This document shows positions 19,831-49,963 of a stretch of DNA of 64,000 nt, piece after piece. The notes under the pieces were generated by a model. It saw nothing but the letters and a program-made list of their open reading frames with translations. It did no database searches and had not been told where the DNA came from. Source of the stretch: Faecalibacterium prausnitzii. Lineage in GTDB: Bacteria; Bacillota; Clostridia; Oscillospirales; Ruminococcaceae. The stretch covers positions 2,666,001 through 2,730,000 of the forward strand of contig NZ_CP065377.1 of the NCBI RefSeq assembly GCF_019967995.1, in the 5' to 3' direction. The translations under genes and the position numbers were made by a program. Position 1 is the first letter of the stretch, and every line of letters begins with the position of its first letter.

Positions 19831-19873
19831 AAAAACTCCCGCCAGCTTCCGGTTGCGGAAGCTGGCGGGAGTT
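19831..19873 (-). terminator. Leftward terminator, probably the original ppdK terminator
   Basis: A perfect 17-bp stem, AACTCCCGCCAGCTTCC (834-850) with GGAAGCTGGCGGGAGTT (857-873), and on the minus strand a U-run after it. Just upstream in that direction is the ppdK-like tail QAAIKNPRK-stop at att site 4. The hairpin therefore looks like the native end of ppdK, now 27 kb from the gene. The rest of the 19,630-20,162 gap holds the terminator above, att site 4 and the PTS-operon terminator. Confidence 0.75.
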
Positions 19874-19902
19874 GATCGTTTATTGGTGCTTTCTCAAGCC
19901 CT

Positions 19903-19965
19903 CACGCAATTACTTGCGGGGGTTCTTGATCGCAGCCTGAGTGGGTGCCAAAATCGCAGAGCGTT
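19903..19965 (-). repeat. att-like site 4: ppdK 3'-end fragment
   Basis: On the minus strand this reads SAILAPTQAAIKNPRK then stop, matching the C-terminus of PPDK (LAAAQAAIKKPRA). The 8-bp core GCAGCCTG is at 19932-19939. Left of the core it resembles site 3 (same stop-proximal sequence and following terminator); right of the core it resembles sites 2 and 3 (GTGCCAAAAT). Interpreted as the outer (chromosomal) end of the island inserted in ppdK. Confidence 0.7.
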
Positions 19966-20100
19966 GGGAATCATTCTTCTCCCTCCGGGTGCTGCTCAAC
20001 GCTTCCTTTTGAACTGAGCATCATCGGCTTGCGATGTCTTTTTACTTCTTCTATGGGAGCAGGAGGCCGCGAGCTTGAGTCTCGCCACTCTGACCGCAAG

Positions 20101-20147: not shown

Positions 20148-20162
20148 CCTACTGCTTTTTCC

Positions 20163-20570
20163 TTAGAAGAAGGATTCATCCTCTGTCTCATTGGTTTCCA
20201 GATTTACCCTGCGCAGATAGCTGCGGCTTTCCTCCAGAATCTCCTCCAGTCGCTCATCGGACAATTCTTCCTCACACAAGACGTTCATCATGAATGTCAT
20301 GTTGACGCCGCTGACCAGACGCGTGTTCGGCTTCTGGAGATATGGATACATTGACTGATTGACGCTGCCTCCATACAGATCGCTGCAAAGCAGGACTTGA
20401 TCCTCAGCAGAAACGGTTTTGTAGAAATCATCCAGATGCTCCTGCACGGTATCGTTGTCTACATAGGCATCAAAAACCGTCAGATTTTGTTGCGCTCCCA
20501 GAAGGATCTCGCAGGAACTCCTGATGCCGCTGGCAAAGCGGCCATGAGAGGACAGAAAAATCTTTAACAT
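20163..20570 (-). CDS. PTS mannose-family EIIA component
   Basis: 135 aa from the ATG at 20570, whose start overlaps the MATE gene stop by 7 bp. The N-terminus LKIFLSSHGRFASGI has the phospho-acceptor His (about residue 9) of the EIIA-Man fold; the LLCSDLYGGSVNQ loop is also typical. It receives phosphate from HPr and passes it to EIIB. It completes the IIB-IIC-IID set located upstream in the same leftward run, although the MATE and two deacetylase-like genes lie between. Confidence 0.88.
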   Translation of the reverse strand: MLKIFLSSHGRFASGIRSSCEILLGAQQNLTVFDAYVDNDTVQEHLDDFYKTVSAEDQVLLCSDLYGGSVNQSMYPYLQKPNTRLVSGVNMTFMMNVLCEEELSDERLEEILEESRSYLRRVNLETNETEDESFF

Positions 20571-21955
20571 GAATCGGCATTCCTTTCTTCCGTACTGTCG
20601 GAGACGATCCGAAAGCATTTTTTACTTTTGAAACGGAACAGACACACAAAAACCTTGATGATCCAGTCCAGTTTCATGCAGACATATACGACAAATGCCG
20701 GCAACTTCAAGACAACACCGGTGAGCCATCCAAGTGGAATGGAAATCAGCCAAAGAAATGTGGCATCAATCATCATGCAGAACCGTGTGTCTCCACCGCC
20801 CCGCAGGATACCCTTTGTCAGCACGGACTGCAGTGCCTGAAATACAATGATAAAGCTGATCGCGTCCAGGAGCTGCATGGCAATGTCATGTGTTTCAACG
20901 GAAAGGTTGTAGGCATTGACCACAAACGGCCCGATGATCATTAAAATGAGGCTGGTTCCCAGGCTAAACAACACGGTCAAGATGATCATGGTTGTGCTTT
21001 CCCGGTAAGCCTTGTCCAATTTGCCGCTTCCCACATTGTTTCCGGTGATCACGGCCGCGGCCTGTCCGATGCCTTGTGTCATGACTGTGCAAAGGCGCTG
21101 GATCATGGCAACGATGGAATTGGCCGCTACAAACGATGTTCCGATGTGGCCGATGATGACCGAGACCATGCTGTTGCCGATACCCAGAAGCATGTCAGAG
21201 CACAGAACCGGAATGCAGTATTTGCAGTATGTACCCAGCAGATCTCCGACCGGCATCCAAAGATCCCGGATGCGGAAGCGCAACTGCTTTTCCTGGAAGA
21301 AGAAGTGTCCGCCGATCACGATCAGCTCAAACAGACGGGCAAGAACGGTTCCGATTGCGGCACCGGCAATCTGCATCTGTGGCACACCAAAGTGACCAAA
21401 AATAAAGACCCAGTTAAAAAAGATGTTGACGAAGAAACTGCCAATCGATGTGTAGAGCGGGATCTTTACATCATGAATAGACCGCAGAATCAAGGTCAGG
21501 GTCATTGTGATGGCCATCATTACAAAAGAAGCTGTGCTGTACCGGAGATAAATTGCACCCTTTTCGATCACAGCAGTGTCGGCTGTATAGATCCGGAGAA
21601 GCTCCTCCGGGAAAAACAACGAGATCACCATGCAGACGACGGCCACAGAGAGAATTACACGCAGCATGATCGCAACCGTCTTTTTCACATTGTTGTAGTC
21701 GCCTTTGCCATAAAACTGCGCACTGAGAACGGATGCACCGCCACCGACGCCCATACAGGCGATCTGGAACAGGTTGATAAAATCATTTGCCAGCGAAGAA
21801 CCGGAAAGCTGTATCTCACCAAAGCTGCCCAGCATCACAGTGTCCATAATGTTCACGCCCACCGTGATCATATTCTGGATGATCACAGGAAGTGCAAGCA
21901 TCAGCATCAGCCTGTAAAAGCCTGGTTCCTTTACCAATAGTGTCTTTTTTTCCAT
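20564..21955 (-). CDS. MATE-family efflux transporter
   Basis: 463 aa, about 12 membrane segments in two MatE repeats. The start (MLALPVIIQNMITVGVNIMDTVMLG) and IGQAAAVITGNNVGSGK are family-typical. It should export cationic or polyspecific compounds using a Na+ or H+ gradient. Embedded between PTS and ChbG-like genes on one strand, so it may export a product or competitor linked to the sugar the PTS imports; that is speculation. Confidence 0.9.
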   Translation of the reverse strand: MEKKTLLVKEPGFYRLMLMLALPVIIQNMITVGVNIMDTVMLGSFGEIQLSGSSLANDFINLFQIACMGVGGGASVLSAQFYGKGDYNNVKKTVAIMLRVILSVAVVCMVISLFFPEELLRIYTADTAVIEKGAIYLRYSTASFVMMAITMTLTLILRSIHDVKIPLYTSIGSFFVNIFFNWVFIFGHFGVPQMQIAGAAIGTVLARLFELIVIGGHFFFQEKQLRFRIRDLWMPVGDLLGTYCKYCIPVLCSDMLLGIGNSMVSVIIGHIGTSFVAANSIVAMIQRLCTVMTQGIGQAAAVITGNNVGSGKLDKAYRESTTMIILTVLFSLGTSLILMIIGPFVVNAYNLSVETHDIAMQLLDAISFIIVFQALQSVLTKGILRGGGDTRFCMMIDATFLWLISIPLGWLTGVVLKLPAFVVYVCMKLDWIIKVFVCLFRFKSKKCFRIVSDSTEERNADSC

Positions 21956-22029
21956 TTTGTCATCATATGCTCCATTTTTTCCAGTGGCGCATATCCCTTT
22001 ATGCGTTTTAAGCGCAGATGCGCGGTGGT

Positions 22030-22833
22030 TTATTTCGCGTGCTCTGCCAGATACTGATCAAAGCTGATCAGCTCAATGCCGTTTGCCTTGACCCATTCCT
22101 TGATCTTCGGCGAGCAGAGCGCTTCGAGTTCTCTGCCGCGGATGACGGAAAAAGTCGACATATTTTGCAATTCACCATCGCAGTAACCGCAGTGGGTTGC
22201 AAGCATCGCATACGGTGCATTGAAGTCGAACTCACAGCCGCCAGAAAGAATATGCCCGATGACATCCGTTGCACCCTGTTCAGCCAGACCGTAAGATGGC
22301 TTGCGGTCATTCGGGTCGACCTTCATGTTTTTATAGTACCAGCGTGTGCCGACCGGCAGATCCTTCAGACCAAAGCAGTTCAGCAGTACGCCATATTCCT
22401 CTGCAATATCCACCATGGCCTGCTCGACTTCCGGTGTGGAAAGCGAATGCCCTGCAAAGTAGCACGGCTTGCGGCCCACAATTTCGATGAAATTTTCGAC
22501 CTGCTGTTTCATTTCACGGTAGATCTGGTCGTAAGGAATCTCATACAGATTTTCCAGTTTGCGGCGGGTCGAAGAAATAAAAATGCCGTTTTCATCCACC
22601 AGTGCAGGGATGTCCTTCGGGTCGCTGGCGGGCAGCCCGGACACAAGATTCAGGTCCTGACCAACCGAAACATGCGGATACTTTTTCAACTCGTTCACCG
22701 CATAGCGGGCCTGTGCAGCATTGTTTGTCATCAGGCCCACATCAGTCAGAATCCCGCAGCGGGCTGCGCGCAGGCAGCCGTCGGTGATGCTGTCGGTCAT
22801 GGCATAATCGGCGCCTCGTACAATCAGTTTCAT
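22030..22833 (-). CDS. ChbG/HpnK (YdjC)-family carbohydrate deacetylase-like protein, altered metal site
   Basis: 267 aa. Start MKLIVRGADYAMTDSI aligns with the family motif ADDFG, but the first Asp of the pair is Ala and the following Gly is Ala. The usual GxHLNL metal-binding His is Asp (VGQDLNLVSG). A late His remains in FAGHSLSTPE. Family members remove N-acetyl groups from chitooligosaccharides; this one may have altered metal use or be non-catalytic. Fifteen bp downstream of a second copy in the PTS operon. Confidence 0.8.
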   Translation of the reverse strand: MKLIVRGADYAMTDSITDGCLRAARCGILTDVGLMTNNAAQARYAVNELKKYPHVSVGQDLNLVSGLPASDPKDIPALVDENGIFISSTRRKLENLYEIPYDQIYREMKQQVENFIEIVGRKPCYFAGHSLSTPEVEQAMVDIAEEYGVLLNCFGLKDLPVGTRWYYKNMKVDPNDRKPSYGLAEQGATDVIGHILSGGCEFDFNAPYAMLATHCGYCDGELQNMSTFSVIRGRELEALCSPKIKEWVKANGIELISFDQYLAEHAK

Positions 22834-22847
22834 CTGTTTCTCCTTTC

Positions 22848-23624
22848 TTATTTCAGGTCACGGTATGTGATCAGCTCAACGTTGTTGCGGAGGATCCAGT
22901 TCTTCACAAAGTCCGAGGTGAATACTTCGTGATCTTTGCAGCGGATGACCGAATAGGTTGTGTAACGGAACAGATCTGCATCCACAAAGCCGACATGACC
23001 GCCCAAAAGGACGTATTCGTGCCCCATTGCCTCATCCAGATGTTCCCGGACATACGCCAGTGCATCGGTTTCCAGCTGCTTTTCCACCGTGAAAGGCTTG
23101 GTATTGTAACCGTTGGCAGCCCAGTACATATTCACCTTTTTGTGGCAGTCTGCGCTGTACGGAACGCCGCTTTCTTCCGACAGGGTCCGGATCGCCCGGA
23201 TATAGGCCGGGCTGCTGCGGCTGATGGAGTGTCCGTGCAGATATTCCGGCGGCTGCCCTGCAAGACGGACAAAGTGCTTCAGCTGTGCCCGCAGTTCGGT
23301 CAGCACCTGTTCGTAGGGCCACAACTCTTCCTTACCAAAGCGCGGATCTGCCATTTTGACGGTGGAACGGATAAAATGTCCGTCCTGATCCACCAGGTCC
23401 GGGAGCAGTTCCGGGTCAGAGACCGGATCTCCGGAGACAATATTGAAGTCGATGCCAAAGCACACCTGCGGATAATCTTGGATAAAGGATGCGGCGTGCT
23501 CGCTTTCCGGCATATTTACAAACAACCCGGTATTCCGGACGACACCGTTTTCAATTGCATCCAGAATGCCACAGGTCACACCACGGGTAAATCCGTAGTC
23601 GTCCGATTGCGTCAGCAGTTTCAT
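22848..23624 (-). CDS. ChbG/HpnK (YdjC)-family carbohydrate deacetylase-like protein
   Basis: 258 aa. The family motif is intact here (QSDDYGF, residues 6-12), but the GxHLNL His is again Asp (FGIDFNIVSG). The C-terminal half has HGHSISRSSP and GGHVGFVDADL. Homologous to its downstream neighbour at roughly 30-35% by eye. It probably acts on an amino sugar or acetylated oligosaccharide brought in by the adjacent PTS. RBS GAGAGG before the ATG. Confidence 0.82.
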   Translation of the reverse strand: MKLLTQSDDYGFTRGVTCGILDAIENGVVRNTGLFVNMPESEHAASFIQDYPQVCFGIDFNIVSGDPVSDPELLPDLVDQDGHFIRSTVKMADPRFGKEELWPYEQVLTELRAQLKHFVRLAGQPPEYLHGHSISRSSPAYIRAIRTLSEESGVPYSADCHKKVNMYWAANGYNTKPFTVEKQLETDALAYVREHLDEAMGHEYVLLGGHVGFVDADLFRYTTYSVIRCKDHEVFTSDFVKNWILRNNVELITYRDLK

Positions 23625-23644
23625 TTCGACCTCTCCCTTCTCAA

Positions 23645-23688
23645 CATAAAAACCAGGGAAGGAAGGTGCTTTGCGAGCCTTCCTTCCC
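23645..23688 (-). terminator. Hairpin between PTS EIID and deacetylase genes
   Basis: GGGAAGGAAGG and CCTTCCTTCCC (23656-23688), with TGGTTTTTATG following on the minus strand. It likely sets higher PTS expression than that of the distal deacetylase/MATE/EIIA genes. Confidence 0.65.
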
Positions 23689-23698
23689 CGTCACAATT

Positions 23699-24523
23699 TT
23701 ACAGAATACCAACCAGCGAGAGCAAAATGCATCCACCCATAATGATGAAGATCAGTTTGACTGGGGTCAGGCCCTTCTGCAGAGCCTTATAGCTACCCCA
23801 CCAGAGAACAAGGCTGAGCAGACCAGGCATCACATTGTCCAGAATGCCCTGAATGTTGATTTCTGCGCCGTTGACCACCGGTGCCAGAGCAATGTTGATC
23901 TTGATATTGGAAGCAATCAGAACACCGACCATCATGGCACCCAGAATGCCGGCAACTTCCATCAGCATAGAAATAATGCCGGATTCCGAAGCCTGATCGA
24001 TCAAAGAGGTGCCGGTGCGGTAACCGGTCATGAACAGCACATACTTGAGTGCAAGAAGACCGAAGCCGAACATTGCTACAAACAGCAGTGGTCCAAGAAG
24101 ATTGCCGTCGGCTGCAATTCCGATGGCGATGCCGGCTACGATAACACGGACACAGTTGAAGAAGAACGAGTCACCAATACCGGCCAGGGGGCCCATCAGG
24201 GATGCAATGACACTGGTGATCGTGCCGGGTTCCACGTTGCCCTTTTCTGCGCGTTCCTTTTCCATTGCACAGGCAATGCCTGCCAACAGACCATACATGG
24301 TCTGGTTTGTGTTGATGTACTCTGAAGCGTGGCGGGTAAGCGCTTCTTTTTTGGCTTCGTCATCCTGATAATATTTTTCAATAACCGGTGCCGTGGACAG
24401 CACCATGGCACGTCCCTGACCAACCACATTGCTGGTGGTGCGCATGCAGGACAGAGAGCCCCAATAGCATTTGTTCAGGATCTTTTTTTCTTCCGGCGAA
24501 ATCGTATTCTGCTTATTAGGCAT
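23699..24523 (-). CDS. PTS mannose-family EIID component
   Basis: 274 aa from the ATG at 24523 behind GGAGG; it overlaps the EIIC stop by 8 bp. The cytoplasmic N-terminal part has the family stretch FGSMSCMRTTSN-like CYWGSLSCMRTTSN, then MGPLAGIGDSFFF, and membrane segments in the C-terminal half. With EIIC it forms the sugar channel of a mannose/fructose/sorbose-type PTS. Confidence 0.92.
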   Translation of the reverse strand: MPNKQNTISPEEKKILNKCYWGSLSCMRTTSNVVGQGRAMVLSTAPVIEKYYQDDEAKKEALTRHASEYINTNQTMYGLLAGIACAMEKERAEKGNVEPGTITSVIASLMGPLAGIGDSFFFNCVRVIVAGIAIGIAADGNLLGPLLFVAMFGFGLLALKYVLFMTGYRTGTSLIDQASESGIISMLMEVAGILGAMMVGVLIASNIKINIALAPVVNGAEINIQGILDNVMPGLLSLVLWWGSYKALQKGLTPVKLIFIIMGGCILLSLVGIL

Positions 24524-25289
24524 AGAAATCGTCACCTCCAACCGTATTTTCAACCTGCTTCAGAGCACGAGAACGATCAAAGACCATGTAGGCACAGACA
24601 AAGCCGAGGATTGCCACGGAGAGCACCGGCATTGCCAGATATTTGGTCAGAACAAAGCCAACCAGAACGAACGGTACGGTGTACTTCGAGAAAATGGCCT
24701 GGGTCGTCAGCGCCAGGCCGACGACCACCAGCATGCCGCCGGATGCCGACAGACCATTCATCAGCCAGGCGGGGATCGCATCGAATGTGGTCGTGATCAC
24801 GGTGGATCCGAAGTAGCAGCACAGGAAGATGACGGCAGTATCCAGCAGGTGCTGGAGCACGATGGCCTGGAACCAGACCAGACGGTTGTACTTTTTGACA
24901 TCGCCCTGCTTGGCGGCGTTCATCAGGGGCACTTCCATCAGGTTGCCAACCATTGTGGTGACCGGCATCAGGCCAAGGCACAGAGCACCGATCGGAACTG
25001 CGATTGCAATGCCCTCCTCCATGGAGATCCCGGACAGGATCGCGAGGCCCACGCCAACTGCCGTACCCGAACGATAATCGGCTGCGAGAGAGCCGCCGAT
25101 GCCGGAAATGCCCATATAAACAGCTTCCAGCGAGGCACCCATTATAACGCCGGTCTTCAGATCACCGCAGAGCCAACCGATCACTGTGCCCAGCACGATC
25201 GGGCGGGTCATGGTCTGCCATCCCAAAATGCCGTCAATCAGCCATGTGATCCAGTAAGCAAACGCTACAAGCAATGCAGGAACTAACAT
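24516..25289 (-). CDS. PTS mannose/sorbose-family EIIC component
   Basis: 257 aa, about 7-8 membrane segments. The N-terminus includes PIVLGTVIGWLCGDLKTG, GASLEAVYMGISGIGG and AADYRSGTAVG, all typical of the sorbose-specific IIC family. RBS AAAGGAGG. It sits 18 bp after EIIB. The sugar is unknown; linkage to ChbG-like proteins suggests an amino sugar or N-acetylated disaccharide. Confidence 0.92.
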   Translation of the reverse strand: MLVPALLVAFAYWITWLIDGILGWQTMTRPIVLGTVIGWLCGDLKTGVIMGASLEAVYMGISGIGGSLAADYRSGTAVGVGLAILSGISMEEGIAIAVPIGALCLGLMPVTTMVGNLMEVPLMNAAKQGDVKKYNRLVWFQAIVLQHLLDTAVIFLCCYFGSTVITTTFDAIPAWLMNGLSASGGMLVVVGLALTTQAIFSKYTVPFVLVGFVLTKYLAMPVLSVAILGFVCAYMVFDRSRALKQVENTVGGDDFYA

Positions 25290-25307
25290 ACTGTGTTTCC
25301 TCCTTTT

Positions 25308-25808
25308 TTATTTCCAATCAGCCTTTTCCGCTGCTGCAACAAAGGCCTTCAGGGACGTTTTTTCAGTCGAGGGCAGGCTTTGGACATAAGCGTCCGCAAC
25401 ACGTTCGCTGATCTCCTTCAATGCACCAAGATCGTCCCGATCCAACTGCACATACATAGAAACGCTTGCGGTATGTTCTGCCTTGCGGTTGTGGTAATTA
25501 CCCAAGTTGACATTTTTCAGTCCCAGCGCCGAAACCAGTTTCAGCGCATCCTTGGGGTTGTCCGTCAGCAAAAAAATCTTCATGCGTTCTGCGCGCGGAT
25601 CCTGCAGAAGTCCGATCACCTCGTCCACGCTGCGAACATGGGTCTTTTTGCCCGGCGGCGCTGCAATCAGCAGCATTTTCTTTTTGAGCGGGTTCTGGGC
25701 CGCTTCGTCGCTTGCACATACGATGGTGTCGATGTCCAATGCCTTTGACCAGCTGGTTGCAACCTGACCATGGATCAGACGTTCATCAATTCTGAGCAAA
25801 GCAATCAT
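25308..25808 (-). CDS. PTS mannose-family EIIB component
   Basis: 166 aa from the ATG at 25808 behind GGAGGACACACA. The signature RIDERLIHGQVATSW carries the phosphorylated His (about residue 13). First gene of the leftward operon EIIB-EIIC-EIID-deacetylase-deacetylase-MATE-EIIA. The ~250-bp upstream region to the PRD regulator includes that gene's terminator and AT-rich promoter sequence. Confidence 0.92.
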   Translation of the reverse strand: MIALLRIDERLIHGQVATSWSKALDIDTIVCASDEAAQNPLKKKMLLIAAPPGKKTHVRSVDEVIGLLQDPRAERMKIFLLTDNPKDALKLVSALGLKNVNLGNYHNRKAEHTASVSMYVQLDRDDLGALKEISERVADAYVQSLPSTEKTSLKAFVAAAEKADWK

Positions 25809-25982
25809 TGTGTGTCCTCCTTTTTTGATGTGGATCACTTTCCGGAAAAGTTTCTGAGTGTATTATAACAAGTCTGCCACAGACTTTCCTTGTCTGATTT
25901 TTTCGAGCACTTTACATAAAAAATTGCATCATTGTACAAATTTGACAAGCTCATATGCTTGCTTTTGACAAAGTGCACAAAA

Positions 25983-26038
25983 AACACCACACAGGATCCC
26001 ACGCTCCCTCAGAGAGCGCAGGAATTCTATGCGGTGTT
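25983..26038 (-). terminator. Terminator of the PRD-type regulator gene
   Basis: A long imperfect stem between AACACCACACAGGATCC (983 onward) and the region ending GCGGTGTT (26038). Leftward reading ends in TTTTTTGTGC. Confidence 0.8.
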
Positions 26039-26061
26039 GTCGTTTTTTCAAAAGGGCAGCA

Positions 26062-27999
26062 TCATTTGAGCAGCCGGTTGATCTGATTGTTCAGCGTTTC
26101 CGGGCAGGGGCAGCTGGTAAGCGTAGCCCAGAACAGCGGGTCCTGTATCAGCTCGTAGAGCAGCAAATTGATGATCCGGATGTTTTGGGCATTTACACGT
26201 CCGGAAAGCAGCAGATAACGGGAGACTCGCTTGTCACCGACCCGGAGCCGACTTTTCAATTTCCCGAACTGCAGCAGACTGTGTGGCGCCGTCTGTTGCG
26301 TGAGAAGCAGAACCAGACAGTCATTCACACAGATCGTTTTCTTCTGGATTTCTTCCACCGTGAAAGCAGCAACGGGAAAGGCACAGCTCTCTGCCAGAAG
26401 CTCTTCGGCCCACCCATCACTCAGCTTCAGCTCCTGGGTGCGGATATCTTCTTTTTTCAGGTCATTTCCAAACAGGTCCCGCAGCATCTGAAGATAGGCA
26501 TTGATGTTGTTGAGATCGTTCCGGATCTCTGCATATGAAAAAAACAGCGGATCGTTGGACAGGCGTTCATCGCACAGGATCAGATCATACTTTTTCCGAG
26601 CCTCCGGGATGTTTTCCAGCATGTCAACATAGGTACAGCATTCCACCGAGCTGTAATACCGCGGGTTCAGCTTTGCAAGGAGAAGGTTCCGGATCATTTC
26701 GGGAGCATAAATGTCGGAACGGGCGGTGATCCCGATGCGGAGCCGCGGCGCAGCATAATCCATCCCCTGAATATAAAAGGCAATCAGTTCACACAGCGGA
26801 GCACAGCAGATTCCGGCCGCCTCGTTTCCATAGCGTTCCGCAAGGAGCTGCTGGATGTTCTGGTAGAGAAGCATCACCAGCGGATAGTCCGAGATCATCT
26901 GTGCCCGGCTTTCAGAGTGCCCTGCATGTTCGGACAGCAAACCCATCTGATGGTGAATGATCAGGCGGTAGAGCGTTGTCCGGAGAATGGAACTGTACAG
27001 GCCGGTGATGGAGAAGCCGTAACTTCGCAGCAGATAGCCATCCACCATGCGGTACAGGTCGTTGGCTTCCTCGGGAAAGGTTGCTTCCACAAAGGCGCAG
27101 AACTCCTCCGGTTCGTCATACATTTCAAACAACATCATGGCAACCGATAAAATCTCCTGTTCGGAAAATGCTTCCCCGCCAAAACAGGACCGGGTAATGT
27201 CCGCACTGATCTTCATCAGCCGTTCGGAGCTGCGGACATAGCCGATGATGGCCGGATGGATGTTTTCAAAACCGGAAAATATCCTTCCCTGCCGGATGCG
27301 CAGGTGCTGGAAGAAGATATAATACGTCAGCCGCCGGACCTGTGCCTGGGAATAATTGCAGCTATTATGCAGCAGCGCTTCATACACTTTCTCCCGAAGC
27401 ACGGGGTAGTGCGGATTGCTGAGCCCTTCCGCGATCTCAGGATAATCTTCTTCCGGAATAACGTTCACGTCCAGCAGACTATAGATCGCCATCAGACAGC
27501 GCCGGATGTTCCATTCGTTGCCCATAGGGTACACTCCGTAATGGGGCGCGTTTTCCAGCCGGATGTTATAACTTTGCAAAAAGGTGCGGCAAAGTTTGAT
27601 TGCATTGCGCAGATTGCTGCGGGAAAATCCCATTGTTTCTGACACAGCATCCAAATCCGTATGGTCATTGGCAAGAAGAATCTTTCTGGCAATATAAAGC
27701 CCTCTGACCAGTTCGCTCCGGTTTGTAAGGTTTCTGCGGTGGCGATTGTAGAAGGACCACATCCCCTTATAGTGCTGCTGAAACTGTTTCTCATCGGTGA
27801 CGGTCCAATGGATCCGGTTTTCTTCAAAATGATACTCGATCCCATAGAACTTTTGCAGTTCTTTCAGACGCTGCTGACAGATGCTGTACTCATAGCGGCT
27901 CATTCCAAAATGCCGGATAAAGTATTCCGGAGTTAGATCTGGCCGCAGGATGATATAACATGCCTTTTTGTAATCGTCAATCGAATAATCCTGAAACAT
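26062..27999 (-). CDS. BglG/Mga-like PRD-domain transcriptional regulator
   Basis: 645 aa from the ATG at 27999, with AAGGGG nine bases upstream; two earlier in-frame Met codons have worse spacing. Two HTH-like segments lie in the N-terminal 160 residues (e.g. MSRYEYSICQQRLKEL and MGFSRSNLRNAIKL). PRD-like helical regions follow (about 200-430), with an EIIB-like C-terminal part (IGITARSDIYAPEM). Such proteins are switched by PTS phosphorylation. Directly upstream of the mannose-type PTS on the same strand, so it most likely regulates that operon. Confidence 0.75.
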   Translation of the reverse strand: MFQDYSIDDYKKACYIILRPDLTPEYFIRHFGMSRYEYSICQQRLKELQKFYGIEYHFEENRIHWTVTDEKQFQQHYKGMWSFYNRHRRNLTNRSELVRGLYIARKILLANDHTDLDAVSETMGFSRSNLRNAIKLCRTFLQSYNIRLENAPHYGVYPMGNEWNIRRCLMAIYSLLDVNVIPEEDYPEIAEGLSNPHYPVLREKVYEALLHNSCNYSQAQVRRLTYYIFFQHLRIRQGRIFSGFENIHPAIIGYVRSSERLMKISADITRSCFGGEAFSEQEILSVAMMLFEMYDEPEEFCAFVEATFPEEANDLYRMVDGYLLRSYGFSITGLYSSILRTTLYRLIIHHQMGLLSEHAGHSESRAQMISDYPLVMLLYQNIQQLLAERYGNEAAGICCAPLCELIAFYIQGMDYAAPRLRIGITARSDIYAPEMIRNLLLAKLNPRYYSSVECCTYVDMLENIPEARKKYDLILCDERLSNDPLFFSYAEIRNDLNNINAYLQMLRDLFGNDLKKEDIRTQELKLSDGWAEELLAESCAFPVAAFTVEEIQKKTICVNDCLVLLLTQQTAPHSLLQFGKLKSRLRVGDKRVSRYLLLSGRVNAQNIRIINLLLYELIQDPLFWATLTSCPCPETLNNQINRLLK

Positions 28000-28353
28000 A
28001 TTGCGCATCCCCTTTTGCCCGAACACCGTAAAGATTCCCTGTGCCTGACACCCACTGAATTTCCGGTTCTGCTGTGTAGCTTGTCGGCAGTTGTCATAAG
28101 TGTACTACATCGTTTTGCACTTTACAAGAACTGCCCGGTGTGATTTTCTCAGATGCATGGATTCTGGAGCACTTACGCCGCCATGCTTTCAATAAAAAGT
28201 CAAGAAATATGAAATAACATTGGCTCGACAAATTATGAACAATCATCCGCGAAAGAAGCACTTGGGAAAAAGAAGGTCGACATACGACAAAAGCCGCCCG
28301 GAAGCGTCTGAGAACGTTTCCGGGCGGCTTTCTGTTTGTTTTAAAGGACGGAG
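28000..28353. other. Intergenic region with one terminator
   Basis: About 350 bp without a supported gene. It carries the promoter of the PRD regulator and, at 28291-28330, a strong hairpin (AAGCCGCCCGGAAGCG with CGTTTCCGGGCGGCTT) that ends the truncated SDR reading frame on the minus strand. Confidence 0.6.
28291..28330 (-). terminator. Terminator of the truncated SDR gene
   Basis: Stem AAGCCGCCCGGAAGCG / CGTTTCCGGGCGGCTT with one mismatch, loop of eight bases, T-rich on the minus-strand exit. Confidence 0.8.
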
Positions 28354-28600: not shown

Positions 28601-29854
28601 ATGACCTGGTGGGTGATTAAGGTCAACCGTACATACGTTATCAACGAGGAACAGGCTGCTACCATACGAATGGTTTTCACGCTCTATTCTCAGGGCTACG
28701 GGGAAAAGGCGATTGTCAATGAACTTTCCCGGCTGGGTCGTAAGGATGGGCACGGAAACGTCAGTTGGTCCTGTACAAAAATCAGCCGCATCCTTCGTAA
28801 CGCAACGTATATGGGCTATGTCTGCTACAACAAGTCCAAGGTCAACAACTATCTTGAAAAGAAACGCATCAACAATCTGGACGAAACTTCCTTCGTCTAT
28901 GTAAAAGGCAACTTTGAGCCGATCGTATCAGAAAGCCTTTGGCATGAATGTGAGCGCATCCGCAAGTCCCGTATTTCCAGCCTGCGCCTTCCTGATGGAG
29001 AAACAAGGCGTAAAGGAGCCAGAACTACCAAGAATCTGTGGGTGTCAAAACTTCGCTGCCGCTGCGGTTCTTCCTACCGCATTTTCAACTGGCGTAAACT
29101 GAAGGACGGAACGCCGGTCTTTGGCTACCAGTGCAATATGCGAACCGTCAACCCGACCCGTTCCTTCGTTCTGGAACACAACATGACCCAGCAGCTCAGT
29201 TGTGATGCCATCTCCATCCCGGAGTGGAAGCTGGAGCTGATGGCGAAGAAGATCTTTGAAAAGGTCTGGGGCAATCAGAACAAAGCCATCCTTCGAGCCT
29301 GTAAGATGATCGAAAGCTGCCAGAACGGAAAAGCCATCACACGAATGTCTGCTGCACCGATTCGGAGCCAGATTGAAAAAATCAAAAAGCGCAAGCTGAA
29401 CTACGCTGCCATGCGTGCAGACGGCGAACTGCCACGAGAAGAATATCAAGCCCTTTGCAAACAGGCAGATGACGAGATTGCCTGCTTAGAGCAGGAGTTG
29501 AAAGCCCTCTCCCCTGCGCCCGAACTGCAGACGGTTTCTTCGGACATGAAAGCGATCTACGATTTTCTCTCTCAGAAGGTCGATGTACACGGTGCCTGTC
29601 TTGCGCCCGAATTGATTGAGCAGTTCGTTGAAGTCGTCACCCCTATTGCCGATTACTCCTACCGCTGGAAGCTGAACACCGGCTGCAAGAAGTCCAAAGA
29701 GGAGCGCACCGATCTGATGGCTGTATCGGAAAAGCCCATCCTCACCTTCACCATCGACTTTGAAACCGCCAAGCGTTACCGGGAAGCCAACAAGATGCCC
29801 CACCAGTTCCGCCGTGCAGCGTGGACCGACCTGACTGTGGAGGTGTATCTGTGA
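28601..29854 (+). pseudogene. Large serine recombinase lacking its catalytic domain
   Basis: 417 codons open, but the N-terminal resolvase domain with the nucleophile Ser (YARVS region) is gone. What remains is the Recombinase domain (INEEQAATIRMVFTLYSQG, ISRILRNATYMG), a zinc ribbon (CRCGSS...CNMRT), a coiled-coil and the tail FTIDFETAKRYRE...WTDLTVEV. It cannot recombine DNA by itself. From 28868 on it is near-identical to the fragment at 46178, and its 3' end leads directly to att site 2. Confidence 0.85.
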
Positions 29855-30017
29855 TGCTTCTGGGAAGCGCCCCCGTGTTAAACGCAATTCACCTCATACA
29901 TGAGCAAACAAATAAGGCCAACCGCTAAAATTGGCGGTGAGCCTTATTTGTTTGCTTGATTTTTAACGATAATTCGTCATAAAGTCCTTATGCTCTTGGG
30001 TTTTTAATAGCAGCCTG
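28868..30017 (+). repeat. Direct repeat copy 1 (recombinase 3' part plus att arm)
   Basis: About 1.15 kb shared with 46178-47326, roughly 97-98% identical in the coding part and less in the ~160 bp between stop codon and att core. Both copies have a hairpin near the end of the shared tract (here AATAAGGC...GCCTTATT, 29,911-29,948). The shared tract ends at the GCAGCCTG core. Confidence 0.85.
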
Positions 30018-30487: not shown

Positions 30488-30615
30488 TCTGTAACGGTGA
30501 TCGCGCCGTCCTGTCGGCCAAGGGTGCAGTGTTCCAGATACAGAAACGTCATCCGGTCTTTCACCTGTGGCAGCGCCTGTAGGCCCGGCCGAATCATGCC
30601 CGGCATCTCGTCCAT
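30463..30615 (-). pseudogene. cas1: cas1 fragment (first 43 codons) fused to the CRISPR array
   Basis: ATG at 30615, one base after the cas6e stop, with GGAGG upstream. Translation begins MDEMPGMIRPGLQALPQVKD and continues RMTFLYLEHCTLGRQDGAIT-VTD, the hallmark N-terminus of type I-E Cas1. At codon 43 (D) the sequence enters the first CRISPR repeat and stops within it after seven more codons. Full Cas1 is ~300 aa, so all metal-binding catalytic residues are lost. No cas2 follows. Confidence 0.92.
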
Positions 30616-30616
30616 C

Positions 30617-31249: not shown

Positions 31250-31264
31250 TCTCTCGCCCCCTTT

Positions 31265-33602: not shown

Positions 33603-37973
<4,371 letters not shown>

Positions 37974-43378: not shown

Positions 43379-43984
43379 TTAAGTTTTTCCCTCGTTAGCC
43401 AATCCAGCCCGAATCTGCCGCTTATACTTATAATAGGTATTCCGGGCAAGCCCTGTCAGCTTCATGCACTCCACATCGTCCAATGTACCACCAAAAGCCT
43501 TACAATGGATGCGGATTTTCTCTTTGGCCGCTTTAGACTTCTTGGTTTCAAATCCAGTGCCTTTTTTACGTCCAACCTGTTTTCCATTCAGCTTTGCTGT
43601 TACAAGACCCTCACGAGTACGCTGGTGTAAATCGGCCACTTCTTTTTCAGACTGCTCAAAGGCCAGCTTGATTTGCTCTTTTGCCAATGCCATCAGATAC
43701 TCGTTGATACCTTTTAAGATAAAATCCACATTGGTTCCTGTCATGGCAATGCTGCCGGACAGGGCCTTTTTGTAAGTTTTGGTATCAATGTGATGCTCTT
43801 TCAGAAATATCAGCCGGATGCCCTTATGGTAGAGATCCTCATACAATGAAAATCCCTCTTCTGCGTTTCTGGACATTCGGGAGACGGAATCGAACACCAC
43901 AGTATCGCCCTCTTTCAGAATCCGATACAGCTTGCTCCATTCTGGCCGAAGGATGGAAGTTCCCGTATTGTTTTTCCTCCATTT
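43379..43984 (-). pseudogene. Serine resolvase lacking its N-terminus
   Basis: Open from 43984 (stop at 43985-43987) without a good ATG. Reads RPEWSKLYRILKEGDTVVFD and SVSRMSRNAEEGFSLYEDL, the middle of a resolvase catalytic domain, then QRTREGLVTAKLNGKQVGR and an HTH (MKLTGLARNTYYKYKRQI). The first ~45 residues, including the catalytic Ser, are missing. Inactive as a recombinase. Confidence 0.8.
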
Positions 43985-44268: not shown

Positions 44269-44965
44269 TCAAGTTTTTGTGCGGATACCCACGGCTACCG
44301 TGAGGTCATGCCACTCATTTTTACGAATTCCCTGATTTCGGGAAGCCTTAAAAGCCTTTGCTTCTTCAAATGAAATCGTAAAACGAGCCATCTCCATTTT
44401 CTCCGGTAGAATACATTTGGAAAATCAGCCTTACTGTTTCAGCTTGGTCAGGGTCAGGAACATAGGTTCCATTCTCTCTGCGGTATCCTAAGATGTTTCC
44501 GCTGCCATACAGAACGTGCTTTTCTCTGCTGATTTTCTGCCCAGCCTTTACGCGCTCTGAAATTTTGCGGCTCTCATCCTGTGCCATAGAAGACATGATC
44601 GTTAACCGAAGTTCGCCATCGTTGGTTGCCGTGTTGATACCATCGTTGATGAAAAACACATCCACCCCACGTGTCTTCAACTCACGTGTATAGGATAGCG
44701 TATCAACCGTATTTCGTGCAAAGCGGCTCACTTCGCGAGTAATGATTAGGTCAAATTTGCCCTTCTGAGCATCTTCCATCATGCGCAAAAACTCTGGCCG
44801 CTTCTGTGCTTGTGTTCCGGTGATGCCTTGGTCTACGTAGACCTCCACGATTTCCCAGTCCGAATGCCTGGAACATTCGATTTTATACCACTCCAACTGA
44901 TTTTCTAGTGCGTTGATTTGCGCTTCATGTTCGGTTGAAACACGAGCGTACACAGCTACTCTCAT
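44269..44965 (-). pseudogene. Large serine recombinase with internal deletion and frameshift
   Basis: N-terminal 199-codon part (44366-44965) has the full catalytic domain: MRVAVYARVSTEHEAQ with nucleophile S10, ITREVSRFARN, and the start of the Recombinase domain. It then runs out of frame. In another frame, 44269-44397 encodes RFTISFEEAKAFKASRNQG and NEWHDLTVAV, the recombinase C-terminus (compare FTIDFETAKRYRE...WTDLTVEV at 29,750). About 300 codons in between are deleted. Confidence 0.85.
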
Positions 44966-45272: not shown

Positions 45273-46178
45273 TTACGGACGGAGCTTGATTCCTTGGAAA
45301 GCAGATACCGGATTCTTTCGGACAATCATATCCTCTCCTGTACACCGGGAACGAGTATGATTCAGCCCCATTTGGGTAAGTCCTTTTGTGAACACTGTTT
45401 GGCTACACGCCCACATATCCTTCTCCTTGCAGTAGTCCAAGTAGGCATTATACAGGTCTTCTGTAGCAGTCACCGCTTTCGGCTCGCTCATATCACAGCT
45501 TTCCTGTACAAATTTTCCTACGGTCTTCGCAATAGAGTCTCTGACAATGCACTTTGCATCGTCCACCTGCGGAATTTCTGGGAACTTGTAGTTAAGTTTC
45601 ACCAGTTTTCGTGCATAATGCAGGGACTTGGTAACAACGGCATCTCGCTCGTCCCAGATTTTATCCTCCAAGTAGGGGTCCTGCTGGTCATCCGGAATTG
45701 ATTCATCGAAAGGAAGAAATACGATCCGTTTTTGAAGCGCATCGTCCTCACCGTCAATACAAAGCGGGTAATTTCCGGCAAAAACAAACTTAATTCGCCT
45801 TGTTAATGTTACTGGGCTGAGATATTTGCGTTGCACCGTAATAGAGTCTCCTCCTGTAATCTGTTTAAGCCGTGAAGCTACTTCTGCATTGAGCTTCGCA
45901 TTTGGCATATCCAACTCAAGATTGATTACCGCATTAAGAAAAGACATTGATGAAAACGTTCCTTTCATTTCTTGAAGTCGTAGATTACCGACACTTTCCT
46001 TCGGATATAACCGTTGGACAAAATTGCCCAGTACGCTCTTGCCGCTGTCTCTGGCATAGCCCATAACAATGAAGAACTTGCCTCGTGCCGGATAAATCAT
46101 CAGGTATCCAATCGCCATCCAAAAACGCTCCTCCAGTTGAGGATTTCCATGCGTAATCTGCTTTAAGAAGCTATCGAA
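45273..46178 (-). pseudogene. Phage/plasmid primase P4-type helicase domain, 5' truncated
   Basis: The frame is open from 46178 and reads FDSFLKQITHGNPQLEERFW before the Met at 46118, matching the D5/P4 helicase start. RDSGKSVLGNF is a Walker A variant and KFVFAGNYPL a sensor region. The primase N-terminus is missing because the gene is cut at 46178 by the recombinase fragment. The remaining 302 codons are intact but probably non-functional alone. Confidence 0.75.
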
Positions 46179-47164
46179 TCAACAATCTGGACGAAACCTC
46201 CTTCGTCTATGTAAAAGGCAACTTTGAGCCGATCGTATCAGAAAGCCTTTGGCATGAATGTGAGCGCATCCGCAAGTCCCGTATTTCCAGCCTGCGCCTT
46301 CCTGATGGAGAAACAAGGCGTAAAGGAGCCAGAACTACCAAGAATCTGTGGGTGTCAAAACTTCGCTGCCGCTGCGGTTCTTCCTACCGCATTTTCAACT
46401 GGCGTAAACTGAAGGACGGAACGCCGGTCTTTGGCTACCAGTGCAATATGCGAACCGTCAACCCGACCCGTTCCTTCGTTCTGGAACACAACATGACCCA
46501 GCAGCTCAGTTGTGATGCCATCTCCATCCCGGAGTGGAAGCTGGAGCTGATGGCGAAGAAGATCTTTGAAAAGGTCTGGGGCAATCAGAACAAAGCCATC
46601 CTTCGAGCCTGTAAGATGATCGAAAGCTGCCAGAACGGAAAAGCCATCACACGAATGTCTGCTGCACCGATTCGGAGCCAGATTGAAAAAATCAAAAAGC
46701 GCAAGCTGAACTACGCTGCCATGCGTGCAGACGGCGAACTGCCACGAGAAGAATATCAAGCCCTTTGCAAACAGGCAGATGACGAGATTGCCTGCTTAGA
46801 GCAGGAGTTGAAAGCCCTCTCCCCTGCGCCCGAACCGCAGACGGTTTCTTCGGACATGAAAGCGATCTACGATTTTCTCTCTCAGAAGGTCGATGTGCAC
46901 GGTGCCCGTCTTGCTCCCGAATTGATCGACCAGTTCGTTGAGGTAGTCACCCCCATTGCCGATTACTCCTACCGCTGGAAGCTGAATACCGGCTGCAAGA
47001 AGTCCAAAGAGGAGCGCACCAATCTGATGGCTGTATCAGAAAAGCCCATCCTTACCTTCACCATCGACTTTGAAACCGCCAAGCGTTACCGGGAAGCCAA
47101 CAAGATGCCCCACCAGTTCCGCCGTGCAGCGTGGACCGACCTGACCGTGGAGGTGTATCTGTGA
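46178..47164 (+). pseudogene. Second copy of the large serine recombinase C-terminal part
   Basis: Begins abruptly at codon INNLDETSF, joined to the primase remnant, and ends in FTIDFETAKRYREANKMPHQ and WTDLTVEVYL. It is ~97-98% identical to 28868-29854. No start codon or catalytic domain. Its 3' flank runs straight into the end of ppdK (att site 1). Confidence 0.88.
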
Positions 47165-47296
47165 TGCTTCCGAAAAGCAGCCCTGCGTTAAACGCAATTC
47201 ACCTCATACATGAGCAAACAAATAAGGCTCACCGCCAAAATTGACAGTGAGCCTTATTTTATGCTCTATTTTTAACGATAATTCGCTATAAAAGCC

Positions 47297-47326
47297 TTAT
47301 GCTCTCGGTTTTTTAATAGCAGCCTG
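47297..47326 (-). repeat. att-like site 1: junction at the 3' end of intact ppdK
   Basis: Core GCAGCCTG at 47319-47326 inside codons for QAA of PPDK. Past the core the stop-proximal codons use AT-rich synonyms (ATTAAAAAACCGAGAGCATAA), shared with site 2, unlike the GC-rich codons of the rest of ppdK and of sites 3 and 4. This marks element DNA replacing the native gene end. Confidence 0.75.
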
Positions 47327-49963
47327 TGCAGCAGCCAGACGTGCGATCGGCACACGGAAGGGAGAGCAGCTGACGTAGTCGAGGCCAACGTTGTGGCAGA
47401 ACTCGACGCTCGTGGGGTCGCCGCCGTGCTCGCCGCAGATGCCCAGGCCCAGGTCGGGGCGGGTCTCGCGGCCGTCGTGTGCAGCCATCTTGACCAGCTT
47501 GCCGACGCCGATCTGATCCAGGTGCTGGAACGGATCGCTCTCGTAGATCTTGTTCTCGTAGTAAGCACCCAGGAACTTGGCAGCGTCATCACGGCTGAAG
47601 CCGAAGGTCATCTGGGTCAGGTCGTTGGTGCCGAAGCTGAAGAACTCAGCTTCCTTGGCGATCTCGCCTGCGGTCAGAGCAGCGCGCGGGATCTCGATCA
47701 TGGTACCGACCTGGTACTTCATGTCAACACCGGCAGCAGCGATCAGCTCGTCTGCGACCTTGACGACGACGTCCTTGACGAACTTCAGCTCCTTGACCTC
47801 GCCGACCAGCGGGATCATGATGTGCGGGGTGATCACGAAACCGGTCTCAGCCGAGACGTTCAGAGCTGCCTTGATGACAGCGCGGGTCTGCATGGCTGCG
47901 ATCTCCGGATAGGTGACAGCCAGACGGCAGCCACGGTGGCCCATCATGGGGTTGAACTCGTGCAGGGAAGCAACGACATTCTTCAGGTCATCGAAGGTCA
48001 TGCCCATATCGGCGGCCAGCTCCTTGATGTCCTCGTCCTTGCTGGGCAGGAACTCGTGCAGAGGCGGGTCCAGATAACGGATGGTCATCGGGCGCTCACC
48101 CATGATGCGGTACATCGCCTCGAAGTCGCCCTGCTGGAACGGCTCGACCTTGGCCAGAGCAGCTTCGCGCTCTTCCACGGTACGTGCGCAGATCATCTCA
48201 CGGACGGCCTTGATGCGGTCTTCTGCGAAGAACATGTGCTCGGTACGGCACAGGCCGATGCCCTCAGCACCCAGGTCAACGGCCTGCTGTGCGTCACGGG
48301 GGTTATCCGCATTGGTCATGACCAGCAGCTGACGTGCAGCGTCTGCCCAGCCCATGAAGCGATTGAAGTTCTTGTTGCCGGTAGCGGCGACGGTCGCGAC
48401 CTGCTCGCCGTAGATGTTGCCGGTGGAGCCGTCGATGGAGATCCAGTCGCCCTCGACGAACTTGTGGCCGTTGATCTCGAAGGTCTTTGCCTCTTCATCG
48501 ATCTTCACGTCGTTGTCATTGCCGCAGCCGGAGACGCAGCAGGTGCCCATGCCGCGGGCAACAACAGCTGCGTGGCTGGTCATGCCGCCGCGGACCGTCA
48601 GGATGCCCTGAGAGACCTGCATACCGACGATGTCTTCGGGAGAGGTCTCCAGACGGACCAGAACGACCTTCTTCATCTCGCCGGACTTGACCTTCTCCTC
48701 TGCCTCTTCCGCAGTGAAGACGATCTGGCCGCAGGCGGAACCGGGAGAAGCTGCCAGGCCCTTGCCGACGACCTCAGCTGCCTTCAGAGCAGCGGCGTCG
48801 AACTGGGGATGCAGCAGGGTATCCAGCTGCTTGGGCTCCACGCGCAGGACAGCCTCCTGCTCGGTGATCATGCCCTCGTCCACCAGGTCGCATGCGATCT
48901 GCAGAGCAGCCTGCGCGGTGCGCTTGCCGTTGCGGGTCTGCAGCATGTACAGGTGGCCGTCCTCGATGGTGAACTCCATATCCTGCATGTCGCGGAAGTA
49001 GTTCTCCAGACGGGTCGCGATCTCAACGAACTGATCGTACACCTCAGGCATCTGATCCTTCAGGTGGCTGATGGGAGAAGGAGTGCGCACACCTGCGACG
49101 ACGTCCTCGCCCTGTGCATTGATCAGGTACTCGCCCATCAGCTTCTTCGCGCCGGTGGCGGGGTCACGGGTGAATGCGACGCCGGTGCCGGAACGGTCGC
49201 CGGAGTTGCCGAATGCCATCTGCTGCACGTTGACCGCAGTGCCCCACTCGTAGGGGATCTCGTTCATCTTGCGGTACACGTTTGCACGGGGGTTGTCCCA
49301 GCTGCGGAAGACAGCCTTGACAGCCTCGATCAGCTGATCGCGGGGATCCTGGGGGAACGGCTTGCCCTCGTTCTCCTCATAGATCTTCTTGAAGACGCCG
49401 ACCAGTTCCTTCAGGTCGTCTGCCGTCAGGTCCACGTCGTTCTTGACGCCCTTGGCTTCCTTCATCTTATCGATCTCGACTTCGAACAGGCTCTTCGGGA
49501 CCATCATGACGACGTCTGCGAACATCTGCACGAAGCGGCGGTAGCAGTCGTATGCAAAGCGGGCGTTGTTGGTCTTCTTGGCCAGACCCTCAACAGCCTC
49601 ATCGTTCAGGCCCAGGTTCAGGATGGTGTCCATCATGCCGGGCATGGACTGACGTGCGCCGGAGCGGACGGAGACCAGCAGGGGGTTGGTGTTGTCGCCA
49701 AAGGTCTTGCCGGTGATCTTCTCCAGGCCCTTGACGTGCTCGAAGATGTCAGCGGTGATCTCGTCGTTGATCTGGCGGCCGTCGGCGTAGTACTGGGTGC
49801 AGGCCTCGGTGGTGATGGTGAAGCCCTGCGGCACCGGCATACCGGCTGCGGTCATCTCAGCCAGGCCGGCACCCTTGCCGCCCAGCGTGTTCTTCATGGT
49901 GACTTTGTCGCCACCGAAGGCGTCGTTGCCCTCGCTGAAGTAGTACAGATACTTTTTGCTCAT
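47297..49963 (-). CDS. ppdK: Pyruvate, phosphate dikinase
   Basis: 888 aa, normal length, from the ATG at 49963 behind GGGAGG. N-terminal ATP-grasp domain (TLGGKGAGLAEM), central phosphohistidine domain (GGMTSHAAVVARGMGTCC), C-terminal PEP/pyruvate barrel (FSFGTNDLTQM, CGEHGGDP). It interconverts pyruvate and PEP with ATP and Pi, central in PPi-based glycolysis of anaerobes. The last 8-9 codons come from an inserted element (see att site 1), yet the protein end AAIKKPRA is preserved. Confidence 0.97.
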   Translation of the reverse strand: MSKKYLYYFSEGNDAFGGDKVTMKNTLGGKGAGLAEMTAAGMPVPQGFTITTEACTQYYADGRQINDEITADIFEHVKGLEKITGKTFGDNTNPLLVSVRSGARQSMPGMMDTILNLGLNDEAVEGLAKKTNNARFAYDCYRRFVQMFADVVMMVPKSLFEVEIDKMKEAKGVKNDVDLTADDLKELVGVFKKIYEENEGKPFPQDPRDQLIEAVKAVFRSWDNPRANVYRKMNEIPYEWGTAVNVQQMAFGNSGDRSGTGVAFTRDPATGAKKLMGEYLINAQGEDVVAGVRTPSPISHLKDQMPEVYDQFVEIATRLENYFRDMQDMEFTIEDGHLYMLQTRNGKRTAQAALQIACDLVDEGMITEQEAVLRVEPKQLDTLLHPQFDAAALKAAEVVGKGLAASPGSACGQIVFTAEEAEEKVKSGEMKKVVLVRLETSPEDIVGMQVSQGILTVRGGMTSHAAVVARGMGTCCVSGCGNDNDVKIDEEAKTFEINGHKFVEGDWISIDGSTGNIYGEQVATVAATGNKNFNRFMGWADAARQLLVMTNADNPRDAQQAVDLGAEGIGLCRTEHMFFAEDRIKAVREMICARTVEEREAALAKVEPFQQGDFEAMYRIMGERPMTIRYLDPPLHEFLPSKDEDIKELAADMGMTFDDLKNVVASLHEFNPMMGHRGCRLAVTYPEIAAMQTRAVIKAALNVSAETGFVITPHIMIPLVGEVKELKFVKDVVVKVADELIAAAGVDMKYQVGTMIEIPRAALTAGEIAKEAEFFSFGTNDLTQMTFGFSRDDAAKFLGAYYENKIYESDPFQHLDQIGVGKLVKMAAHDGRETRPDLGLGICGEHGGDPTSVEFCHNVGLDYVSCSPFRVPIARLAAAQAAIKKPRA

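Follow-up and report, generated by a model that had tools for sequence, protein, structure and literature searches.

Arrays of att-flanked defence and sugar-use cassettes at the 3′ end of ppdK in Faecalibacterium point to an integration hotspot for large serine recombinases

Attachment-type sites behind ppdK

The window analysed here, a stretch of 64,000 nucleotides of Faecalibacterium prausnitzii (positions 2666001-2730000 of the 2.94-Mb single contig NZ_CP065377.1, assembly GCF_019967995.1; genome G000 below), holds part of a cassette array anchored at ppdK, the gene for pyruvate phosphate dikinase (PPDK; 47297..50017, minus strand, an open reading frame with PPDK domains), whose last codons coincide with the attachment (att) site. 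Read together with related genomes, the array points to a real integration hotspot at ppdK that resembles the staphylococcal cassette chromosome (SCC) and whose cassettes are shared between species, with a mechanism that is well supported in outline. On the minus strand, four 8-bp cores (47319..47326, 38302..38309, 30010..30017 and 19932..19939) each lie within codons for the PPDK tail followed by a stop codon. In gene order, site 1 (47319) joins ppdK's own upstream half to a stop-side arm next to a recombinase (A), is of the attL type and encodes QAAIKKPRA plus stop. Site 2 (38302) joins an upstream arm (P, 38310-38345) to a GC-rich stop-side arm with a terminator (T), and is where a 9.0-kb cassette ends and a CRISPR-Cas cassette starts. 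Site 3 (30010) combines P with A and encodes QAAIKNPRA plus stop, and site 4 (19932) combines P with T, its terminator lying at about 19831-19880; the tail at both sites 2 and 4 reads QAAIKNPRK plus stop. An earlier, sequence-only reading of this stretch had placed the four sites and their tails correctly, and its pattern of shared arms (A at 47319 and 30010, T at 38302 and 19932, P at 19932, 30010 and 38302) holds, as do its cassette sizes; its assignment of the peptides to the sites was wrong and is replaced by the one given here.

The 8-bp core, which that reading used as the marker of a site, is present at all four sites but is weak alone: 11 copies occur in the window against 4.6 expected, a count reached in 1 of 100 shuffles, and 7 of the 11 lie outside att sites. 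The core by itself is thus a poor signal, and the arms define the sites. An extended 24-mer (upstream arm plus core, up to three mismatches) is a strong one, with 32 matches genome-wide in 10 of the 31 congeneric genomes compared and none for the reversed pattern. Sites 30010 and 47319 are located at the end of a repeat (28865-29164 versus 46175-46474, 99%; 29948-30028 versus 47257-47337, 83%), between the two copies of which the recombinase protein is 99% identical over 269 residues.

The three cassettes proposed from the window are real but form part of a longer array of seven sites and six intervals, which extends past window position 1 to further sites at genome positions 2660484, 2658364 and 2657372, the window sites being the first four. 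The six intervals carry, in order, RloAB with recombinase remnants (9,017 bp), type I-E CRISPR-Cas (8,292 bp), a mannose-type phosphotransferase system (PTS; 10,078 bp), sugar-acid genes (25.4 kb), a C69-type peptidase (2,120 bp; family match made on the copy in genome G003) and a 202-aa protein (992 bp). The first 19.6 kb of the window were considered as fixed host flank; this was rejected because the next site lies beyond them and a glycerate-kinase-like gene within them (named by reading the sequence) is distant from ppdK in relatives. This gene, of the sugar-acid cluster at genome 2660484-2685955, has matches in 20 other genomes and is far from ppdK in all seven single-contig genomes that have both. 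Within the same 25.4-kb interval, a T arm without a core just before a DUF4869 gene (at about genome 2662500, outside the window) is probably a decayed cassette boundary.

Recombinase remnants and cargo in the window

Remnants of two large serine recombinases, LSR-A and LSR-B (43-45% identical), accompany the sites. Behind site 1, an LSR-A remnant (46163..47164, plus strand) retains residues 262-594 of 594, lacks the catalytic domain, has its 3′ end toward the site and shows no Pfam domain in its open part. It is followed on the minus strand by a D5-type primase/helicase remnant of a B-type element (45273..46118; DUF5906), relatives of which stand directly before LSR-B in genomes G017 and G029; by an LSR-B remnant (44272..44965) that keeps residues 1-191 and then 536-577, the middle missing; and by a small serine resolvase remnant (43379..43900; cluster c19), common to the B-type elements of G017 and G029, that begins mid-domain. 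The defence genes of this cassette, also on the minus strand, encode the RloA/AbiLi ATPase (39273..40478; AAA_21, AbiLi at 260.9 bits) and RloB/AbiLii (38593..39282; PF13707, AbiLii). A second LSR-A remnant (28601..29854, plus strand; residues 184-594), again without the catalytic domain, lies behind site 3. The proposal of a recombinase next to a stop-side arm stands for the A arm, but all copies in the window are truncated, and two recombinase families with different element-borne sites (attP) contributed arms.

The type I-E CRISPR-Cas cassette (30100..37967, minus strand) is recognised by its Cas3 and CasE families, its repeats and a gene order shared with G002, G015 and G030. This order is cas3, cse1, cse2, cas7, cas5, cas6, a 43-residue cas1 remnant (30487-30615) and the array (about 30100-30487); cas3 and cas6 are named by family search, and the four genes between them are presumably cse1, cse2, cas7 and cas5, judging from gene order and general knowledge. 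Because no cas2 match is found in the cassette and only 43 residues of cas1 are left, it is probably unable to acquire spacers. Both cas1 and cas2 are kept in G002, in G030 and in a far stretch of G028; G015 has a 28-residue cas1 match and no cas2.

The PTS cassette (cargo at 20163..28026, minus strand) encodes a LevR-like regulator, mannose-type PTS IIB, IIC, IID and IIA, two YdjC-like proteins and a MATE-like transporter, and the window portion of the fourth interval (1..19931, continuing to the next site, at genome 2660484 or oriented position 53526) carries sugar-acid catabolism genes; the open reading frames of both were named by reading their sequence, not by family search.

ppdK 3′ ends across Faecalibacterium

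A ppdK match at E ≤ 1e-100 is present in 26 of the 31 congeneric genomes, and the 3′ end was read in 20, the window genome included. Six genomes with a partial match were left out (G005, G011, G018, G022, G024 and G026), the match in four of them lying at the start of a contig or a few bases from it. The sequence read behind ppdK amounts to 10-40 kb in G001, G006, G007, G008, G015, G016, G020 and G021, 48 kb in G014, and more in the others. All 20 genomes keep the PPDK tail, AQAAIK(N/K)PR(K/A/G) plus stop, and the sequence after the stop varies (type T with its terminator, A, B, E and others). P-arm sites lie behind ppdK in 8 of the 20 (six each in G000 and G003, four each in G002, G027 and G029, two in G012, one each in G015 and G017), and every one of these 28 sites shares the direction of ppdK, both strands having been searched. 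Of the four genome-wide matches beyond the 28, three are in G014, on a contig other than that of ppdK, and the fourth is in G028, where it shares the strand of ppdK and lies 115 kb behind it. In addition, a decayed P-T site is present in G008 and another in G027.

Empty sites and other cargo between the same cores, which the sequence-only reading had suggested seeking, both exist. In G009 and G030, ppdK is followed by the GC-rich T arm and the terminator; the 59.7 kb read hold no other site, and the P arm has no match anywhere in either genome. A third candidate, G008, was rejected as an empty site owing to its decayed P-T site at 2788. Other cargo is present between the same cores in other species, as described below. 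An exact 24-mer scan of the named genome collection, from which records near the window genome may be left out, returned nine stretches, all from Faecalibacterium. One P-arm match in another genus (G175), with neither a gene end nor ppdK beside it, was judged to be chance, and the idea that the N-type stop-side arms of some sites derive from the ppdK end of another genus found no support, the arm occurring in 1 of 396 genomes of the family, itself a Faecalibacterium.

Cassettes recur as units between species

The same cassettes (mannose-type PTS, Wadjet, type I-E CRISPR-Cas, C69 peptidase and cellobiose-type PTS) occur in different orders in different species. G000 and G003 share a PTS cassette of 10,078 bp, and a C69 cassette of 2,120 bp is present in one copy in G000 and in two in G003; the Wadjet cassette, identified by JetABCD in PADLOC and by JetA, JetD_C and matching domains in Pfam, measures 6,812-6,831 bp in G002, G003 and G029; and a cassette with glycoside hydrolase family 1 (GH1) and YitT genes measures 5,434-5,435 bp in G012 and G029. 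The two C69 copies of G003 lie at oriented positions 654 and 25978 of one array. G014 has a 6,831-bp interval between the same arm types as the Wadjet cassette, in which genes were not called.

Identity between cassette copies changes at the sites. At the left boundaries, the 32 bp on the cassette side of the core are 81-100% identical. On the far side of the P arm, the next 124 bp drop to 42-55% in 18 of 21 comparisons, the level of unrelated pairs (49.6% on average, 58% at most); the three exceptions (72, 72 and 100%) have the same neighbour cassette. At the right boundaries, the 120 bp outside are 49-66% identical in 11 of 15 comparisons, and the other four (93-100%) have the same next cassette or arm type.

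Defence cargo comprises RloAB/AbiL, Wadjet and CRISPR-Cas I-E, and a DUF4869 protein encoded with an AAA protein is perhaps also defensive. Metabolic cargo comprises the mannose-type PTS, a lactose/cellobiose-type PTS with GH1, GH1 with YitT, and the sugar-acid genes. In PADLOC, no match was found for the four proteins of the GH1/YitT cassette, both DUF4869 proteins, a PRiA4_ORF3 protein, LSR-A or the C69 peptidase, and the two AAA proteins next to DUF4869 gave only weak matches (E 2e-5 to 9e-4). Of 30 intervals, 23 are without trace of either LSR-A or LSR-B, a count that includes two intervals of G014 contig C8 without gene calls in which tblastn shows neither; traces are present in seven (at 691 and 18000 in G000, 678 in G002, 5714 in G003, 513 in G017, 7628 in G027 and 629 in G029). 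Six of the eight array genomes have no full-length LSR-A or LSR-B in the stretch read.

Two recombinases and their probable arms

Full-length recombinases are found close to ppdK in other genomes. LSR-A of G014, encoded about 170 bp from the ppdK core, is a single protein with the Resolvase catalytic domain and the Recombinase domain; LSR-B of G029, encoded 3.9 kb from the core, also has both domains; LSR-A remnants adjoin 8 of 9 A arms. In G017, ppdK is joined to a B arm followed by a B-type element with full-length LSR-B, and in G014, ppdK is joined to an A arm and full-length LSR-A. A second G014 contig, C8, carries the B-type element from the core on, behind a left arm (P*) that occurs at no other site in the stretches searched. 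Compared with the ppdK junction of G017, the C8 junction matches at 17 of 60 bases left of the core, which is chance level, and at 59 of 60 to its right, and the two B-type elements are 96.5% identical over 5,964 bp from the core on. We therefore treat G017 and G014 as a before/after pair whose arrangement fits insertion of an LSR-A element at ppdK; because the two G014 contigs are not joined in the assembly, the junction between ppdK and C8 is an inferred one. The pair is in line with the replacement of the gene end that the sequence-only reading had envisaged. The genes behind LSR-A in G014 (topoisomerase, NlpC/P60 and ImpB-like) suggest that this element would be an integrative conjugative element (ICE).

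Cognate half-sites of such recombinases can be sought as dyads, and three left halves (P, P* and ppdK) were paired with six right halves (two A, and B, T, N and G), giving 18 pairings. The two strongest dyads are the two cognate pairings, P* with the A arm of G014 (17/25, P=0.001) and P with B (15/25, P=0.003); P* with the window's A arm gives P=0.026, and the other 15 pairings give P values of 0.136 or more. From these two dyads and the relatedness of LSR-A and LSR-B, it would seem that two related recombinases, each with its own attP, share one chromosomal site (attB).

Recombinases 47-50% identical to LSR-A in G001, G021 and G016 adjoin core-containing sites with a different left arm, of the GCTCCCTRCCRWCRGAGCAGCTRC type, which suggests a further cognate pair. 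In G028 (797-5947, oriented), the LSR-A C-terminus lies in frame within a long open reading frame (1,734 codons), which probably arose by deletion inside an element. A protein search with LSR-A scored 7,994 candidates, 5,709 of them relatives (nearest cluster 97% identical, 5,396 members), and, giving no genome context, decided nothing; solved structures match chiefly the catalytic part. A viral source of the sites or recombinase was rejected: viral_contigs holds no exact P-arm 24-mer, and of the LSR-A relatives at five viral loci, the closest matches part of the protein at 67% identity and the others are 47-51% identical.

That the internal tails encode PPDK-like peptides would also be expected if segmental duplication or gene conversion had copied the ppdK end and left the tails as scars that have nothing to do with the cargo. 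The left arm of the internal copies (P or P*) is, however, not ppdK sequence of this genus, the boundaries of the cargo fall at the core, and the arms come with cognate dyads and LSR genes, all of which makes duplication scars extremely improbable.

Recombinase relatives beyond the genus

At E ≤ 1e-120, 13 of 91 related genomes have an LSR-A relative, and 10 of these genomes are Faecalibacterium. In 10 of the 13, the relative is on the ppdK contig and no more than 50 kb behind ppdK, and outside Faecalibacterium these ten cover two genera of its family and one of another; in the remaining three, all draft assemblies, it is on another contig, and two of these carry a QAAIKN(P/S)R-plus-stop site beside the recombinase. 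In G035, of another genus of the same family, a 58% identical recombinase lies about 2.5 kb behind ppdK together with two further tail-like sites; this genome has its own ppdK array, with different arms. In G432, of another family, the recombinase is 100 bp behind ppdK, and in G032, of a third genus, it is 11.5 kb behind; no peptide-coded site was found in the 19.9 kb read in G032, which stop 3 kb short of ppdK.

Relation to known systems

Like SCC at rlmH/orfX and pseudo-SCC elements, as presented in the text examined of PMC2900268, the arrays combine a large serine recombinase, the 3′ end of a conserved gene, direct-repeat att sites and tandem composites with members that lack the recombinase. 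The direct-repeat sites stand at both ends here, and recombinase-less members are among the tandem composites. Unlike SCC, the target is ppdK rather than the rlmH 3′ end, up to six intervals occur per array, and the cargo examined serves defence and sugar use. The best Ccr match is CcrB, at 139.8 bits for LSR-A and 114 for LSR-B against a cut-off of 900; because the recombinases are Ccr-like but not Ccr, and the target differs, we do not file the arrays as SCC.

The ssrA islands of Dehalococcoides, with CcrB-like DsiB, similarly stand in tandem behind one gene and are bounded by direct repeats with a conserved upstream motif, and in the text examined of PMC3146451, 15 islands without an integration module are counted against 16 with one, and accretion is proposed. 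There, however, the target is ssrA, the integration module has six genes including DsiA, and the cargo consists of reductive dehalogenases, whereas the Faecalibacterium repeats re-encode a protein tail. Cis-mobilisable elements (CIMEs) and tandem accretion at ICE attachment sites likewise involve recombinase-less att-flanked segments; in Faecalibacterium, by contrast, such segments are the majority type (the 23 of 30 intervals without LSR-A/B trace, a count made for these two recombinases) and are shared across species.

Open-access literature yielded no description of a ppdK hotspot in Faecalibacterium or of serine-recombinase arrays at ppdK, and the word dikinase does not occur in the text examined of PMC6295017, PMC5883640 and PMC11792537. 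The earlier claim of an undescribed hotspot thus holds, as far as the literature was searched, for this genus and recombinase class, but not for the ppdK end as such: in Bacteroidota, PvCTn-like conjugative transposons have been reported to integrate at the 3′ end of ppdK, at the same codons and with regeneration of the stop codon (text examined of PMC11005914). They differ in belonging to another phylum and in being conjugative transposons, and no tandem cassette arrays appear in the examined text of that paper. The 20-bp attB motif given there (PMC11005914, in the part examined) matches the 20 Faecalibacterium ppdK ends with one mismatch in 7, two in 10 and three in 3, i.e., 17 of 20 at no more than two. 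At this threshold the motif occurs at 41 places in 1.99 Mb (both strands), 33 of which are the Faecalibacterium sites described here.

Tyrosine integrases typically insert at gene ends through a short core, and one might suppose that such an enzyme drives the integrations, the serine recombinases being passengers. The use of the same ppdK codons by PvCTn fits this, and the words 'tyrosine' and 'serine recombinase' are both absent from the main text, as examined, of PMC11005914. However, among the matches listed for 20 genomes there is no PF00589 match in the stretches fetched (one listed match, at 2710850 in G028, falls inside the 115-kb interval of that genome, outside the fetched parts), LSR-A is beside 8 of 9 A arms, and in other genera, too, LSR-A relatives keep to the vicinity of ppdK. 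We consider a tyrosine integrase as the driver very unlikely.

Proposed mechanism

We propose, with a probability of roughly 0.86, that the ppdK 3′ end serves as attB for a family of large serine recombinases, whose stacked integrations have decayed to att-flanked cassettes. Strand exchange would occur inside CAGGCTGC. Each integration would cut ppdK a few codons before the stop and supply a new tail (AAIKxPRx plus stop) and new downstream sequence, so that PPDK stays whole, and the other half-site of the element would remain at its far end. Repeated integration at ppdK or at hybrid sites would stack elements head to tail in one direction; as elements decay, most would lose the recombinase and persist as CIME-like, att-flanked cassettes with defence or sugar-uptake genes. 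The sites, their single direction, the cassette units, the before/after pair, the cognate dyads and the ppdK-linked recombinases of other genera are read from genome sequence, and on these the proposal is built; the crossover position, the order of events, the assignment of recombinases to sites and mobilisation in trans are what we infer from them.

Several points weigh against this proposal. No recombination has been observed. The array of the window genome yielded no full-length LSR-A or LSR-B, the P arm has no match at three mismatches in 21 of 31 genomes, and for the N-arm cassettes no recombinase came to light. The attR of G014 is on a different contig from its ppdK. The dyad P values are uncorrected for the 18 pairings, and pairing P with the N, T or G arm gives no significant dyad. 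The B-type P arm closes most cassettes regardless of their start arm, which simple integration alone does not explain without later exchanges or deletions. The CRISPR-Cas cassette is only 55-71% identical between species just past its start arm, and the cellobiose-PTS cassette of G002 has a start arm resembling an A/T hybrid. The DUF4869/AAA cassette retains its left end, not its right (50-53% identity in the last 264 bp before the P arm in 6 of 6 comparisons), so not every interval is a clean unit.

The hybrid-like start arm and the DUF4869/AAA cassette would also fit a history in which the elements arrived by serine recombinase long ago and the recombinase-less cassettes are now exchanged by RecA-type recombination between the repeated sites. 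The P-T sites have long common arms, with roughly 100 bp shared over P arm, core and T arm, and both the intervals without LSR-A/B trace and the array genomes without a full-length enzyme point the same way. The arm after the PTS cassette, however, is of type T in G000 but of type N in G003, and since T and N arms share little, the crossover would have been confined to about 44 bp (P arm plus core). Present-day exchange of the RecA type is possible, though we lean against it.

Returning to the serine recombinases as the agents of integration, a wider and tentative idea is that the last ppdK codons are a cross-phylum landing site for separate recombinase systems (serine recombinases here, PvCTn integrases in Bacteroidota) that seeds an integron-like cassette bank in Faecalibacterium, from which small recombinase-less units (single genes, Wadjet, CRISPR-Cas and PTS operons) might be excised and re-inserted in trans by LSR-A or LSR-B of incoming elements.

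Significance for Faecalibacterium

Faecalibacterium, an abundant gut commensal, makes up to 15% of gut bacteria and is described as having highly plastic genomes (text examined of PMC6295017). The ppdK hotspot would give one concrete address and a mechanism for part of this plasticity, and the location of the arrays predicts where new defence and sugar-uptake modules may be found. The two recombinase/attP pairs, whose target in the chromosome is defined, could be put to use as genetic tools, and the use of the same ppdK codons by elements of Bacteroidota makes a cross-phylum integration hotspot directly testable. If the cassettes are indeed mobilised in trans from a common bank, defence and diet genes would be swapped together at one address.

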